Origin: Candidatus Coatesbacteria bacterium RBG_13_66_14
Lineage (GTDB): Bacteria > RBG-13-66-14
Direction: 5' to 3'
Assembly: GCA_001774505.1 (NCBI GenBank)
Contig: MFAF01000102.1
Coordinates: 13,818 to 27,923, forward strand
Length of the DNA stretch: 14,106 nt
In this document: piece after piece, positions 373-8,618 of the stretch
How positions within the stretch are numbered: the stretch's first letter is position 1
How the letters are laid out: every line of letters starts with the position of its first letter
The notes under the pieces: model-generated
What the model saw: only the letters and a program-made list of their open reading frames with translations
Database searches by the model: none
Told to the model about the DNA's origin: nothing
Position numbers and translations under genes: made by a program

Positions 373-401
373 TTGCAAAGTTAATTCGATTTTGGTAAAT
401 T
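373..401 (+). promoter_or_regulatory. Putative sigma70-type promoter for the first DNRLRE gene
   Basis: TTGCAA (373-378) and TAAATT (396-401) are separated by 17 bases in an AT-rich stretch (about 320-405) unlike the GC-rich coding DNA around it. Transcription would start near 408 and leave a leader of about 53 bases. That leader contains a small hairpin (GCTGC 410-414 with GCAGC 421-425). The -10 region overlaps a 17-base motif that recurs inverted upstream of the second DNRLRE gene. Confidence 0.5.
384..400 (-). promoter_or_regulatory. Shared 17-base motif, copy 1 (possible operator)
   Basis: Read on the minus strand this is ATTTACCAAAATCGAAT. It matches ATTTAGCAAAATCGAAT at 1552-1568 on the plus strand at 16 of 17 positions. 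It lies between and over the -35 and -10 elements of the first DNRLRE gene, where a bound regulator would block RNA polymerase. The sequence match is seen; the regulatory role is inference. Confidence 0.35.
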
Positions 402-460
402 ATCGTTTAGCTGCTTGATGGCAGCGAACAAGAAATTACCGATTCAGAAGGGAGGACGTC

Positions 461-1474
461 ATGCGGCTCTTTGTGAAGGTAGCTCTCTGCGTCCTTTTCC
501 TCGCAGGACTGACCGCGGCTGAGACGATACTCTTCCAGCCCGGCGCCGAGGGGAAGGATGCGGAGATAGACAACCAGCAGGGCGGATCGCCCCACGGCGG
601 CACCGCGTACATCCTCAACTACGTCAGTGGCTGAGGCGTCACCGCAGCAGGCTTGGTCGAGTTCGACCTAAGCGAACTTACGTGTTACGACGGTGTCTAT
701 GTGGAAGAGGCCTTACTAGAGGTTTACGAGTGCATCATCGGCGCATCCGGCCTGACCTTCGGTGCCTACAAGATTCTCGAAGACTGGGACGAGGCCACGG
801 TGACGTGGGGCACGCAACCACAGTGGAGTTACACCTACGAGGATTACATCGTCACCGACTCCTCGCCCGGCTGGTGGGAGTTCGACATCTCCGAGCTGTG
901 CCGGGAGTGGGTCTACGGCACCGACAACTACGGCGTCTCCATCTACTACCAGGGCAGCGGTTGCAGCTTCCCCTACGTGTATTCCTCCGATTACTCGGGC
1001 ACCTCGTACCGGCCCAAGCTCACCGTGGATTACTGCTTCGACGAGGAGACCCCCTACGGTGACGGCTTCGATCCCCAGGACGGCGAGACCGACGTGCCGT
1101 CCGACTCGAACGTCGTCTTCCACCTGTGCGACGAGCTGGCCGGCATTGATGTGGACACAATCCACTTCAGCATCGAGGACACCTCCCGAGCCCCCGGCGC
1201 GGGCGGCAACTTCGTGGGCGTGGGCGATCCCATGCCGGCACGCCACATCGCCGGCGACCTGGAGATTGATGACGACGACATCCACGACGTCGTCTGCACC
1301 TTCGATCCCGACGACCCGCTGGATGCGGACGTGATAACCTGCACCGTGGACGGCAGCCTGGCCGACATGCTGGGCAACCCGGTGGGAGATGACATCGTCT
1401 GGAGCTTCTCCGTAGAGGGGATTGAGACGGCGGTCCAGGACACCACCTGGGGCGTCATAAAGGCCGGGTTCTAG
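461..1474 (+). CDS. Secreted DNRLRE + Ig-like protein with in-frame UGA (candidate selenoprotein), paralogue 1
   Basis: ATG at 461 follows a good ribosome binding site (GGGAGG at 451-456). A signal peptide (residues ~1-20, ending LTAA) precedes a mature start ETILFQPG. The frame meets TGA at 632-634 (codon 58) but continues to TAG at 1472-1474, giving 337 residues if the UGA is decoded. Residues 21-~192 form a DNRLRE (CBM96-like) beta-sandwich domain, with LVEFDLSEL, WDEATVTWG, GWWEFDI and YSSDYSG..RPKLTVDY motifs. Residues ~195-320 add an SbsA/Big_5-like Ig domain (YGDGFDPQDGETDVPSDSNV) that the two sister genes lack. The protein ends TTWGVIKAGF, a tail shared with its sisters. Cys168 is conserved in all three. 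The gene sits between its own promoter and terminator. DNRLRE domains are adhesive or carbohydrate-binding modules of exported proteins; the ligand here is unknown. Decoding of UGA as selenocysteine is inferred from the conserved position and the hairpin after it; Trp readthrough is the alternative. Confidence 0.82.
632..634 (+). other. Recoded in-frame UGA codon, paralogue 1
   Basis: TGA in the context GTC AGT GGC TGA GGC GTC falls at codon 58, before the conserved GLVEFDL strand. It aligns exactly with TGA codons 59 and 55 of the two sister genes. No frameshift is needed to continue reading. Confidence 0.8.
651..673 (+). promoter_or_regulatory. SECIS-like hairpin, paralogue 1
   Basis: The upper stem GGTCG/CGACC (655-659, 664-668) closes an AGTT loop. 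A single bulged T (669) separates it from a lower stem GCTT/AAGC (651-654, 670-673). The loop starts 26 bases after the UGA and has G as its second base, which agrees with the known bacterial SECIS pattern (loop about 16-37 bases from UGA, G in the first two loop positions). The element lies within the coding sequence, as bacterial SECIS elements do. Confidence 0.6.
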
Positions 1475-1506
1475 CCACGCACATTTATTGAGGGCAGATA
1501 AATCGG

Positions 1507-1530
1507 GGCGCCCGGAAGGGCGCCTTTTTT
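1507..1530 (+). terminator. Rho-independent terminator of paralogue 1
   Basis: A perfect seven-base-pair stem (GGCGCCC 1507-1513 with GGGCGCC 1518-1524) closes a GGAA tetraloop and is followed by six T residues. It lies 32 bases after the TAG stop. Confidence 0.88.
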
Positions 1531-1551
1531 ACTCGAAGCTGCGCGACGATT

Positions 1552-1568
1552 ATTTAGCAAAATCGAAT
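1552..1568 (+). promoter_or_regulatory. Shared 17-base motif, copy 2 (possible operator)
   Basis: ATTTAGCAAAATCGAAT, inverted relative to copy 1 (384-400) with one mismatch. It lies just upstream of the -35 element of the second DNRLRE gene. I see no convincing copy before the third gene; GCAAATCC on the minus strand near 2445-2455 is at best a weak resemblance. Confidence 0.35.
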
Positions 1569-1576
1569 ATTCCCCC

Positions 1577-1605
1577 TTGTCAATGGGACGGTTCTCTGCT
1601 ATTCT
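1577..1605 (+). promoter_or_regulatory. Putative sigma70-type promoter for paralogue 2
   Basis: TTGTCA (1577-1582) and TATTCT (1600-1605) are separated by 17 bases, about 58 bases before the start codon. A separate promoter agrees with the terminator that ends the preceding gene. Confidence 0.55.
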
Positions 1606-1663
1606 AATACTCGGTCATTCTTGGACCGAGCATCTTCACCTATCCACAGTGGAAGGAGAACCC

Positions 1664-2302
1664 ATGAAACTCCTGAGTGCGGTTTGCGTGAGCCTGCTGC
1701 TCCTCGTCTCGCTGGCGACGGCCGGCACGCTCGTCTTCCAGCCCGACACCGACGAGGGCAAGGACGCGGAGATTGACAACAAGCAGGGCGGCACGCCCCA
1801 CGGGGGGTATCCGTACATCCTGTTGCCCATGGGCGGGTGAGGCAACGACTTCGCCGGTTTGGTCGAGTTCGACCTAAACCCAATCATGAGCTGGTCCATC
1901 AGCGTTGACAGCGCCACCTTTGAGGTTTACGAAAACCTGACGAGCGACGCCGGGGTGACCTTCGGCGCCTACCGCATCCTCGCCGACTGGGACGAGGCCA
2001 CGGTCATCTGGGGCAACCGCCCCGCCTGGGGTTCCAGCGCCTACGGCTACATCACCACCGACTACTCCACCGGCTGGTGGTCCTTCGACGTCACCTCCCT
2101 GGTGGAGGATTGGCTGGACGGTGTCTATCCGAACTACGGCATCTGCATCACCCACCCCGGCGGCGGGTGCTCGCCCCCCCGGGTGTGCGCCTCCGAGTAC
2201 TCCCCGGTGGACCCGTCGCTCTGCCCCAAGCTGACCATCGTTTACACCGAGACCGCCGTCGAGGATGCATCCTGGGGCCAGATCAAGGCCGATTTCGAGT
2301 AG
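1664..2302 (+). CDS. Secreted DNRLRE protein with in-frame UGA (candidate selenoprotein), paralogue 2
   Basis: ATG at 1664 follows GGAAGGAG. A signal peptide (residues 1-~20, ending LATAG) leads to a mature start TLVFQPDTDEGKDAEID, nearly the same as in the sister proteins. TGA at 1838-1840 is codon 59; the frame continues to TAG at 2300-2302, giving 212 residues when decoded. The single DNRLRE domain shows GLVEFDLNP, DWDEATVIWGNRPAW, GWWSFDVTSL and a closing strand CPKLTIVY. The tail is ASWGQIKADFE. Cys169 (GGGCSPPRVCASEY) aligns with Cys168 and Cys164 of the sisters; Cys175 is extra. The gene has its own promoter and terminator. It probably acts at the cell surface or outside the cell; the ligand is unknown. 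The intact frame after the TGA, with strong synonymous-site divergence from its sisters elsewhere, argues against a pseudogene. Confidence 0.82.
1838..1840 (+). other. Recoded in-frame UGA codon, paralogue 2
   Basis: TGA in the context ATG GGC GGG TGA GGC AAC falls at codon 59, seven codons before VEFDL, exactly as in the two sister genes. Confidence 0.8.
1856..1880 (+). promoter_or_regulatory. SECIS-like hairpin, paralogue 2
   Basis: Upper stem GGTCG/CGACC (1861-1865, 1870-1874) with AGTT loop, bulged T (1875), and a five-pair lower stem GGTTT/AAACC (1856-1860, 1876-1880). Compared with paralogues 1 and 3, the third lower-stem pair is U-A instead of C-G, a compensated double change. It has the strongest lower stem of the three. 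Confidence 0.6.
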
Positions 2303-2383
2303 CTATCCCCCCGGCGGGAAGGGAGGGCTGGGCGTTTCGGCGCGGCCCGGACTTGGCTGATTACTTTCCCATCTGCGTGAAGG

Positions 2384-2412
2384 GAGGGCGCCCCAGGGTG
2401 CCCTCTTTTTTT
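2384..2412 (+). terminator. Rho-independent terminator of paralogue 2
   Basis: A nine-pair stem with one G-U pair (GAGGGCGCC 2384-2392 with GGTGCCCTC 2397-2405) closes a four-base loop and is followed by seven T residues. It begins about 80 bases after the stop. Confidence 0.85.
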
Positions 2413-2433
2413 CGACTTTACGGCATTCGTGAA

Positions 2434-2470
2434 GGGCCGAAATACGGATTTGCGCGCGGCCCGTTTTTTT
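2434..2470 (+). terminator. Possible second terminator or attenuator before paralogue 3
   Basis: GGGCCG (2434-2439) can pair with CGGCCC (2457-2462) over a 17-base loop, followed by G and seven T residues. The loop is long, so this is weaker than the other terminators. It would stop readthrough from upstream just before the promoter of the third gene. Confidence 0.35.
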
Positions 2471-2478
2471 GATAATAT
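2449..2478 (+). promoter_or_regulatory. Possible promoter for paralogue 3
   Basis: GATAAT/TAATAT (2471-2478) after a T tract is a good -10 candidate about 45 bases before the start codon. The best -35 (TTTGCG near 2449-2454) is poor. A promoter is expected here because of the strong terminator upstream. Confidence 0.4.
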
Positions 2479-2521
2479 AGCTACAGTGTATCCTGAGAAA
2501 AACCCGATTAGGAGGTGTCGG

Positions 2522-3142
2522 ATGCGTTTAATCGTCTTGTGTGTCCTGCTCGTCTTCACCCTGGCCCTGGCCGAGACGCAGGTTTACCAGCCCGGACCCG
2601 AGGGTAAGGACGCCGAGATAGACAGTGCGCAAGGTGGGTCGCCTCACGGGGCTTACCCGTACCTCTTGATGCCGGTCGGCGGGTGAGGCGTGCAGGCCTG
2701 GGGCTTGGTCGAGTTCGACCTGAGCGATATCCTGGCCGAAGACATAGTCATCGAACTGGCGACCCTCGAGGTTTACGAGGGTCAGGTGGGCAGCTACGGC
2801 GCCGCCGTCAACTGCCAGCGCATCAAGACAGTCTGGGTCGAGGCGAGCGTGATCTGGGCGAGCCGTCCCCAACTGGGGTCGAGGGTGTGGGACTCCGTCG
2901 TCGGCGACGGCGCGCCCGGCTGGTGGGTGTTCGACATCACCGAGCAGGTTCAGCTCTGGGTGGACGGAGAGCAGGATAACAATGGAGTGGCCCTGGTCCA
3001 TTCACCCGGTTGCACGTTCCCCATCGTGTACTCCTCGGACTACACCGCCGATCCCGATTTGCGGCCCATCCTGACCATCGATTACTCCCCCCGCACCGAG
3101 GTGGAGGAAGTTTCCTGGGGCCAGATCAAGGCCACCTTCTAA
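2522..3142 (+). CDS. Secreted DNRLRE protein with in-frame UGA (candidate selenoprotein), paralogue 3
   Basis: ATG at 2522 follows a strong ribosome binding site (AGGAGGTG). The signal peptide is short (residues 1-~17, ending LALA) and the mature start is ETQVYQPGPEGKDAEID. TGA at 2684-2686 is codon 55; the frame continues to TAA at 3140-3142, giving 206 residues when decoded. The DNRLRE domain shows GLVEFDLSD, ATLEVYE, GWWVFDITEQV, NNGVAL, YSSDY and RPILTIDY. The tail SWGQIKATF matches the sister proteins. Cys164 (SPGCTFPIVYSSDY) is the only Cys, besides Cys98, in the mature part, and it is conserved in all three. It is the smallest family member and lacks the Ig-like extension of paralogue 1. 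It has its own terminator and lies tail-to-tail with tpiA. Confidence 0.82.
2684..2686 (+). other. Recoded in-frame UGA codon, paralogue 3
   Basis: TGA in the context GTC GGC GGG TGA GGC GTG falls at codon 55, at the same aligned site as codons 58 and 59 of the sister genes. Confidence 0.8.
2703..2725 (+). promoter_or_regulatory. SECIS-like hairpin, paralogue 3
   Basis: Upper stem GGTCG/CGACC (2707-2711, 2716-2720) with AGTT loop, bulged T (2721), and a lower stem GCTT/GAGC (2703-2706, 2722-2725) with one U-G pair. The distance from the UGA equals that in the other two genes to the base. Confidence 0.6.
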
Positions 3143-3168
3143 TACTGCGGTAAATACAGGGGAAATTT

Positions 3169-3194
3169 AAGACGCCCGATCGGGCGTCTTTTTT
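3169..3194 (+). terminator. Rho-independent terminator of paralogue 3, possibly bidirectional
   Basis: GACGCCCGATCGGGCGTC (3171-3188) is a perfect palindrome flanked by AA/TT. It forms a nine-pair stem with a GATC loop, then a six-T run on the plus strand. On the minus strand the stem is followed by TTAAATTT, so it may also end the convergent tpiA operon. Confidence 0.88.
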
Positions 3195-3216
3195 ACGTTG
3201 GACTGAGCTGAAGCGG

Positions 3217-3969
3217 CTACGCGCCGGCGCGGGCGATGGCGGCGAAGCCCTCCGGGTCCAGGCTCGCCCCGCCCACCAGGACACCGTTCACGTCGGCCTG
3301 CGCCATGAGCTCCGCGGCGTTATCCGGTTTCACCGAGCCGCCGTAGAGGATTCTCACCCCTTCCGAGGCGGCGCCGAGCGCCTTTTCGAGCAGCCCGCGT
3401 AAAAAACGGTGGGCCTCCTGGGCCGTCTCCGGCGTGGCGGTCCGTCCCGTCCCGATGGCCCACACCGGCTCGTAGGCCAGGGTGGTTTTAGTTACCAGAG
3501 CCGGTCCCGCCCCACCCAGGCTTTCGGAAAACTGCCGCCGCAGCACCGCCTCGGTCTCGCCCCGGTCGCGCTCCTCCAGGAGCTCGCCCACGCAGACTAT
3601 GGCCTTGAGACCCAACTCGTGGGCCCGTTTCAGCTTGGCCAGCACCAGGGCGTCGGTCTCGCCGAAAACGTGCCGGCGCTCCGAATGGCCCAGAATCACC
3701 CACCCGACGCCGAGGTCCACCAGAGCGGCGCCCGAAACCTCGCCCGTATAGGCTCCGGACAGCTCCTGGTGCATGTTCTGCGCGCCCACCGCAACGTGCG
3801 TGCCCCGGAAGGCCGCCACCGCCGCGGGTAGGGCCGGGAAGCTCGGGCAGACGAGGAGGTCCACCGTCCCGACCAGGTTCGCCGTCTCGGGCGCAAAACG
3901 CCCGGCGTACCCGGCCACCTCCCTCGGCGAGAGGTGCATCTTCCAGTTCCCGGCGACGAGGTTTTTCAC
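3217..3969 (-). CDS. tpiA: Triosephosphate isomerase
   Basis: A cytosolic glycolytic/gluconeogenic enzyme that interconverts dihydroxyacetone phosphate and glyceraldehyde 3-phosphate. It has 250 residues, the usual length. Key residues are in place: GNWK with Asn8 and Lys10, His95 in ILGHSERR, catalytic Glu167 in AYEPVWAIGTG with the mobile loop 6 (168-175), and phosphate-binding YGGSV (209-213) and GVLVGGAS (229-236). The start is GTG at 3969. Its ribosome binding site (TAGGAG) overlaps the TAG stop of the M18 gene nine bases upstream, so the two are translationally linked. It is the last gene of the minus-strand run. Confidence 0.97.
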   Translation of the reverse strand: MKNLVAGNWKMHLSPREVAGYAGRFAPETANLVGTVDLLVCPSFPALPAAVAAFRGTHVAVGAQNMHQELSGAYTGEVSGAALVDLGVGWVILGHSERRHVFGETDALVLAKLKRAHELGLKAIVCVGELLEERDRGETEAVLRRQFSESLGGAGPALVTKTTLAYEPVWAIGTGRTATPETAQEAHRFLRGLLEKALGAASEGVRILYGGSVKPDNAAELMAQADVNGVLVGGASLDPEGFAAIARAGA

Positions 3970-7592: not shown

Positions 7593-8618
7593 CTATCGTT
7601 GGTATATATCCAGTGCTTTTTTAAGTTCATTTGGTGATACCTTAATAAGGTAATCAGGGATAAAGGATAACGGCATATAATCGCATCTCCAGAAATCGAA
7701 ATAATAAAGATCCCACATTATACGATAAGAGTTGATTTGTTGATAGTAGTGTTTTTCGTTGTCATACAAAGAAATATATAGAAGCATCAATCTATATATT
7801 CCATCTTCAAATTTTGTTATATTATCAAATACCATTTTATTAAAATCATCGTATGTTACATTTGCAAATTGTTGAGGGAAATGATAATGCCCCGGGTAGG
7901 CGTAGTTAGGAAATACATGTATCCAATCATTAAGCAACAATCCCCGTTGTGCATCAATTCCCCGTAAGGGATAACAAATACCATTTGCATTATTATCGAA
8001 AGCAAACATATAAATACCAAATAATGCATGGCCTTGGTTCTTTGTATTCTTAAACGTGTGATAAAAGTGGATTTGATAATGGTCTTGATTGGCCTCTAAA
8101 TACTCCTGATTGTACTGTATACTTGTATCAAATTGAATTTGTCTGAACTCACCCTTTCCGTAAGGTACTATTTTATTAACCTTATATAATTCACCATCAT
8201 CATGGCGCATAAACTTAATTTTATCTTGCTTAATTGTGCATAGATTGGTCGTTTGGGGTATGGATACTATTTCAGGATTAATGCTTGAAATTCGAAGGTC
8301 TAAATCAAAAGCCCTGAAATCCTTTTGTTCCCGTACCTGTTTATATAGAATTAATCCAGTTAAACCATATACCAAGACCGAGAAAAATATTAAAGTCCAT
8401 TCAAGGAAATTGTAAGACCAAGAAAATGTACTTATTTGTAGGTTGCTAGTGCTACTTGCTCCAATGAGAAATGCTATGAAAATAATAGCTACAATAAATA
8501 AAATAATTATTAATAAGTAATATATTTTATCTTCTCTTTTTCTTTGGGTTTTATTTTTACTGTTCTCTGAGATATATCTGAGTGCTTTTAAAACCCTTTT
8601 TAACAAGCTTATCATCAT
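7593..8618 (-). CDS. Unrecognised two-TM membrane protein, AT-rich and probably horizontally acquired
   Basis: A 341-residue protein of unknown function. A basic N-terminus (KNKTQRKRED) leads to two predicted membrane helices (about 32-53 and 71-92), then a soluble domain of ~245 residues rich in Tyr, Phe, Asn and Asp. I recognise no motif. The gene is strongly AT-rich (a sampled 60-base line is about one third G+C) while both flanks are plainly GC-rich, and its codons follow suit (many Lys AAA, Ile ATA, Asn AAT). It nevertheless fits neatly into the operon: its ATG-ATG start lies nine bases after the lptB stop, with GGTAAGGA as ribosome binding site. No transposase, integrase or terminal repeats are visible. 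An accessory role such as defence or envelope stress is possible but has no direct support. Confidence 0.8.
   Translation of the reverse strand: MMISLLKRVLKALRYISENSKNKTQRKREDKIYYLLIIILFIVAIIFIAFLIGASSTSNLQISTFSWSYNFLEWTLIFFSVLVYGLTGLILYKQVREQKDFRAFDLDLRISSINPEIVSIPQTTNLCTIKQDKIKFMRHDDGELYKVNKIVPYGKGEFRQIQFDTSIQYNQEYLEANQDHYQIHFYHTFKNTKNQGHALFGIYMFAFDNNANGICYPLRGIDAQRGLLLNDWIHVFPNYAYPGHYHFPQQFANVTYDDFNKMVFDNITKFEDGIYRLMLLYISLYDNEKHYYQQINSYRIMWDLYYFDFWRCDYMPLSFIPDYLIKVSPNELKKALDIYQR

Follow-up and report, generated by a model that had tools for sequence, protein, structure and literature searches.

Bacterial selenoprotein genes that depend on a bacterial selenocysteine insertion sequence (bSECIS) contain an in-frame UGA and, downstream of it, a stem-loop whose apical loop includes a G and lies at a distance of 16-37 nt, and they occur together with selA, selB, selC and selD. 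The published bSECIS model specifies a loop of 3-9 nt that lies 16-37 nt from the UGA, with a G in the first two positions and a minimum free energy (MFE) of at most -7.5 (PMC13188914). Table 1 of a 2026 review lists 119 families and subfamilies of prokaryotic selenoproteins, and most of the characterised selenoproteins have the thioredoxin-like fold (PMC13188914). Here we describe three neighbouring genes in a 14,106-nt stretch of DNA (hereafter the window) from Candidatus Coatesbacteria bacterium RBG_13_66_14 (contig MFAF01000102.1 of assembly GCA_001774505.1, positions 13,818 to 27,923). These genes resemble the bSECIS genes in all of the above features but encode proteins of the DNRLRE/CBM96 fold, which is not thioredoxin-like. 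The in-frame UGA of each gene very probably encodes selenocysteine (Sec).

The closest protein families are DNRLRE (NF033679) and CBM96 (PF24517), in comparison with which the window genes encode short stand-alone proteins, not lyase modules. No selenoprotein is known in this fold family, as the initial annotation of this DNA also states, and both family names and both accessions are absent from Table 1 of the review (PMC13188914). The full-text literature, a scope that leaves aside preprints and most subscription papers, yielded no paper in which a DNRLRE/CBM96 member is named as a selenoprotein, none that combines 'selenoprotein' with 'DNRLRE', and none that combines 'Coatesbacteria' with 'selenocysteine'. 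The selenobacteriocins (SGUG motif, TIGR04081; Table 1 of PMC13188914) share Gly-Sec-Gly with the window proteins, and the product of gene 1 also has S-G-U-G; however, the window proteins are domain-sized, and TIGR04081 is not among their NCBIfam matches (E up to 1). The prodomains of the TGF-beta family, which are of animal origin, show 11-21% sequence identity, and no common function is claimed. As far as these searches go, the mode of UGA decoding is of a known kind, whereas the protein family and the fold are new to it.

Three DNRLRE genes with an in-frame UGA

When TGA is taken as a residue, all three genes are single open frames with exactly one TGA each, terminated by TAG, TAG and TAA, respectively. 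The features of the locus are as follows.

461..1474, + strand, DNRLRE/CBM96 gene 1, 337 aa when the UGA is read through
632..634, + strand, in-frame UGA of gene 1, codon 58, predicted Sec
651..673, + strand, SECIS-type hairpin of gene 1
962..964, + strand, Cys168 codon of gene 1, the cysteine that accompanies the UGA (equivalent to Cys169 of gene 2)
1664..2302, + strand, DNRLRE/CBM96 gene 2, 212 aa when the UGA is read through
1838..1840, + strand, in-frame UGA of gene 2, codon 59, predicted Sec
1856..1880, + strand, SECIS-type hairpin of gene 2, with one additional outer pair
2168..2170, + strand, Cys169 codon of gene 2
2522..3142, + strand, DNRLRE/CBM96 gene 3, 206 aa when the UGA is read through
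2684..2686, + strand, in-frame UGA of gene 3, codon 55, predicted Sec
2703..2725, + strand, SECIS-type hairpin of gene 3
3011..3013, + strand, Cys164 codon of gene 3 (equivalent to Cys169 of gene 2)

The initial annotation placed the TGA at codons 58, 59 and 55 (positions 632, 1838 and 2684) and regarded these as one aligned codon; the frames and the alignment, in which the three UGAs share a single column, bear this out. It also described seven residues that start with Gly and end in a GLVEFDL-type sequence. The Gly and the GLVEFDL-type stretch are indeed found after each UGA, but the spacer that leads to GLVEFDL comprises five residues (GVTAA, GNDFA and GVQAW). Elsewhere in the window UGA is a normal stop, given that seven of the 11 other genes, the same seven that had been named beforehand, end in TGA; a reassigned code is accordingly ruled out.

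The family assignment is above the curated cut-offs, with scores for genes 1, 2 and 3 of 81.5, 80.8 and 63.7 bits against NF033679 (cut-off 34), the only NCBIfam match of these proteins at E up to 1, and of 48.1, 57.1 and 39.8 against PF24517 (cut-off 26). The NF033679 match runs across the UGA as one domain (residues 34-192 of protein P0002). The proteins belong to a beta-sandwich fold of the carbohydrate-binding-module type; a PDB sequence search with P0002 gave no match at E up to 1. The product of gene 1 contains an additional C-terminal region with a weak likeness to Big_5, below the cut-off of that family. The N termini of all three proteins, judged by eye, resemble signal peptides, and the proteins are predicted to be secreted.

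Conservation of the UGA, the hairpin and the Sec machinery

The window assembly (2.06 Mb, 75.6% complete) belongs to the phylum Candidatus Coatesbacteria, and DNRLRE relatives were sought in 14 genomes of this phylum (E up to 1e-10) and detected in 13. Ten genes contain the TGA; they are distributed over six genomes and four genera, all of one family, f1 (three genes in G000, two each in G010 and G011, and one each in G013, G008 and G012). In all ten the UGA occupies the identical column, the codon being invariant within this clade, and the matches listed show one further in-frame stop only, a TAA in a paralogue from G012. Sequencing error and decay, which the initial annotation had already argued against, are ruled out by the retention of the same column across six genomes. 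Syntenic loci are found in G010, G011 and G013, where they adjoin tpiA and an M18 peptidase gene and include two, two and one UGA-containing copies, respectively. The copy in G010 (L054:3001-3636) uses TGA in both meanings within one gene, as codon 59, which is the one followed by the hairpin described below, and as codon 212, the terminator; thus, UGA is conserved in homologues while also serving as an ordinary stop. A tree was built from the 54 Coatesbacteria rows that have at least 141 aligned residues and no gap at the site; in it, the UGA genes, all ten, form one side of one branch (support 89/71; 79/80 with both key residues masked), so a single origin is likely, although not certain.

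Each UGA is followed by a hairpin, a feature absent from the initial annotation. In all ten genes it starts 16 nt past the UGA and consists of a nine-pair stem, from which one U bulges, and a loop of four bases, which is AGUU in nine genes and GGUU in G012; the stem in G008 has one U-U mismatch. RNAalifold recovers the same hairpin unaided. Across the nine distinct rows, pairing is found in 98.8% of 81 cells and falls to 14-48% when the partner is slid by 1-3 columns. Compensatory (both-sided) changes affect four of the nine pairs, a count equalled or exceeded in eight of 500 shuffles, and the covariation score of 0.420, compared to 0.192 for the shuffled alignments, was reached in none of the 500. 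The single-sequence z-scores of the window hairpins are -3.46, -3.21 and -2.34, and the MFE across the ten genes ranges from -11.1 to -12.9. With the loop 25 nt from the UGA, all ten hairpins agree with the published bSECIS model in each respect cited above. A bSECIS-style test was applied to 78 aligned rows (derived from 142 matches, 110 of them distinct, by removal of those without a residue at the site and of repeated DNA); it examines a 30-nt segment at nucleotides 17-46, counted from the codon's first base, and demands an MFE of at most -7.5, at least four pairs and a G within the first two loop positions. This test is passed by all ten UGA genes as opposed to 3 of the 68 aligned relatives without UGA, 11 of which reach the energy threshold alone. 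A covariance model (R1), run over the 14 genomes with at most the best 150 candidates scored per genome, recovers every one of the ten UGA genes (E at most 3.4e-8); among the candidates scored there are seven weaker matches (E 0.008-0.97), the two best of which lie, by eye, where other genes encode L-[VI]-E-F-D-L. An Rfam scan of the window gave nothing at the gathering threshold, and the six Rfam matches within 400-3300 (E 2.1-4.5) are at chance level.

The machinery for Sec insertion, the search for which had been proposed in the initial annotation, is present in the source genome, the tRNA-Sec gene in part: selA (378 bits, cut-off 268), selB (296 bits, cut-off 242) and selD with an in-frame TGA of its own (332 bits, cut-off 125) are accompanied by selC as an 80-nt fragment that scores below its cut-off. 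This gene (L017) adjoins selB and is interrupted by a stretch of N; what is left, 80 nt with the UCA anticodon, is identical to the intact gene of G011. The tRNA-Sec search of the window genome, in which the best 150 of 409 candidates were scored, produced 11 sub-threshold matches; eight of these correspond to loci L012-L019, which hold ordinary tRNAs except for L017, the interrupted selC. Across the phylum, tRNA-Sec exceeds the cut-off in 11 of the 14 genomes, in each of which ARAGORN identifies tRNA-Sec(tca) in the best locus (L141-L151), and selA does so in 12. Given that selD is above its cut-off in 13 of the 14 genomes and contains one TGA in every case (L001, L170-L181), the use of Sec is probably phylum-wide.

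The coding sequence is under purifying selection after the UGA in close orthologues, with nonsynonymous (dN) and synonymous (dS) divergence of, for instance, 0.12 and 0.68. For gene 2 and its G011 counterpart (G011a), dN/dS is 0.08/0.45 before the UGA and 0.06/0.32 after it; the respective values are 0.05/0.19 and 0.08/0.25 for gene 3 and G011b, and 0.18/1.52 and 0.27/1.54 for G010a and G013.

The site-specific recoding proposed in the initial annotation, most likely to Sec, is supported by the Sec machinery and by the covarying hairpin after every UGA. Under this interpretation, SelB with Sec-tRNA would decode the in-frame UGA, the SelA/SelB/SelD/tRNA-Sec system and the SECIS-type hairpin acting together.

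Possible role of the predicted selenocysteine and alternative explanations

The comparison with homologues at the UGA site, which the initial annotation had suggested, gave a divided answer. Within the clade the codon does not vary, as described above, while the relatives without UGA carry mixed residues, with Cys in 6 of 68 (including L032 in the sister group) and Trp in none of the 68. A second position, column 169, is Cys in 9 of the 10 UGA proteins and in none of the 61 relatives without UGA that are not gapped at this column; 10 of these 61 have a Cys at most three residues away from it. The aligned part of the G008 protein has Cys169 as its sole cysteine.

A set of 5.8 billion proteins was searched twice, with the best 7998 candidates by shared words scored in the second search. 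Among the candidates scored are 12 fragments of 137-150 aa that begin shortly after the UGA position (P0004-P0011, P0015-P0018), and all 12 contain Cys169; P0008 and P0016 correspond to genes included in the counts above, and protein records do not reveal the UGA itself. P0016, a public NCBI record from a metagenome-assembled genome, is a 146-aa 'DNRLRE domain-containing protein' that comprises the post-UGA part only. Reading of the UGA as Sec would explain why the closest records found in these searches contain this part alone. None of the 41 other proteins (P0012, P0019-P0058; four of them gapped at this position) has Cys169; in P0041 and P0043 the Sec column is occupied by Cys.

The presence of a Cys that accompanies the UGA in nine of ten genes and is found in none of 61 relatives suggests a Sec-Cys pair. 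The DSSP strings of two structural models agree in assigning to a strand or bridge both the residue at position +2 from Sec and the one immediately preceding Cys169, a placement that fits neighbouring strands and proves no contact. In a pair of this kind, Sec59 and Cys169 would lie near each other and form a reversible selenenylsulfide outside the cytoplasm, which could switch or protect a surface-binding module of the carbohydrate-binding fold. We regard the complete explanation, in which the UGA likely encodes Sec and likely contributes to a redox pair in secreted proteins, as probable, and the specific Sec59-Cys169 redox pair as evenly poised between true and false. More tentatively, and with the balance slightly on the side of doubt, these might be secreted lectin-like modules in which a selenenylsulfide between a Sec and a Cys 110 positions apart, across the beta-sandwich, provides a carbohydrate-binding fold that is extracellular and non-enzymatic with a selenium-based redox switch; such a family of selenoproteins would be the first of its kind. 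Our confidence in any statement on what the module binds is low. If the UGA does encode Sec, the finding would extend Sec from selenoproteins that are mostly thioredoxin-like or metalloenzymes to a secreted binding fold and raise the question, answerable at the bench, of the purpose of selenium outside such a bacterium. The UGA with its 23-nt hairpin also offers a compact test case for recognition by SelB in a phylum known here from metagenome assemblies.

Several observations weigh against this interpretation. Given the mixed residues in the relatives without UGA, including the low count of Cys, the usual Sec/Cys homologue pattern is weak. The association of Cys169 with the UGA (Fisher P 1.3e-10, kinship ignored) overstates independence because the UGA genes are related, and a Sec-Cys pair is not universal because the G012 gene has the UGA and its protein lacks any cysteine. 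The incomplete tRNA-Sec of the window genome scores 38.4 bits against a family cut-off of 47, and because the tRNA-Sec model also gives scores above the cut-off for 5 of the 14 control genomes, a score by itself is no proof. G009, which belongs to the same genus and is 96% complete, has no UGA copy despite the presence of selD and tRNA-Sec; selA is matched there in part. The hairpin region doubles as code for the conserved GLVEFDL; synonymous differences are slightly rarer there (11/47, compared to 63/198 and 81/265 elsewhere), which is a weak test, and further pair types in the hairpin do not exceed those in the shuffles (6 versus 6.4). The selD hairpins share no clear common loop with the hairpin of the UGA genes, as judged for 8 of 13 selD loci by pattern and for the window's own. 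Finally, dN approaches dS between diverged copies (0.52/0.66 after the UGA for genes 2 and 3, and 0.88/0.89 for gene 2 and the G012 gene), and such pairs therefore carry little information.

The alternatives that survive best accept Sec and differ in its role. Sec59 might act alone, in a peroxidase-like manner or through an intermolecular bond, with Cys169 incidental. The cysteine-free UGA protein of G012 and P0028, which resembles it and has no cysteine either, fit this possibility, yet nine of the ten UGA proteins and all 12 fragments retain Cys169, which is the sole cysteine not only in the aligned G008 part but also in fragment P0009, so that we consider a solitary Sec59 unlikely. To a similar degree we doubt that the role is not redox but the binding of a soft metal or metalloid by Sec, Cys169 and the His of a PHG motif (His46 in gene 2). 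Sec is a good binder of soft metals, and this His is present in 8 of the 10 UGA proteins; however, it is missing in G008 despite Sec and Cys169, and in G012, and a Pfam scan of ten window genes matched no family of metal transport or resistance.

Far less probable is selenium-free, low-rate readthrough in which the hairpin stimulates decoding of the UGA by tRNA-Trp or another near-cognate tRNA. Hairpins past stop codons can stimulate readthrough, and the site residues of the relatives without UGA are not limited to Cys; nevertheless, the genome encodes a Sec system, the hairpin has the spacing and loop of a SECIS, the clade never swaps the UGA for another codon in ten genes, and Trp is not found at the site in any of the 68 relatives. 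Decaying duplicates, or two separate pieces (a short secreted peptide and a reinitiated C-terminal part), can practically be dismissed: databases do list the C-terminal part alone in 12 fragments, as gene finders call them, but the NF033679 model is continuous across the UGA, all ten genes keep one frame with no second in-frame stop in the match, dN is well below dS on both sides of the UGA in close orthologues, and a separate C-terminal piece would lack a signal peptide.

Paralogues, the C-terminal tail and a gene of low GC content

G012 and G003 have many DNRLRE paralogues, several of them in tandem: the 15 matches in G012 include its UGA gene, while the 13 in G003 are all free of UGA. The products of genes 1-3 and many other DNRLRE proteins of the phylum have in common a C-terminal tail of the S-[W/F/L]-G-x-I-K-A-x-F type that looks like a sorting tag. 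A strict pattern for it occurs in 33 of 53 uncut Coatesbacteria rows, with frames that continue past a UGA stop scored as misses, and in none of 21 rows from other organisms.

Elsewhere in the window, an open reading frame on the minus strand (7593-8618), between the PD40 and lptB genes, has no Pfam match, and its sole match in the compared stretches of neighbouring genomes is partial (32%, in G010). Its GC content is 0.31, compared to 0.62-0.70 in the other genes, and it was probably acquired.

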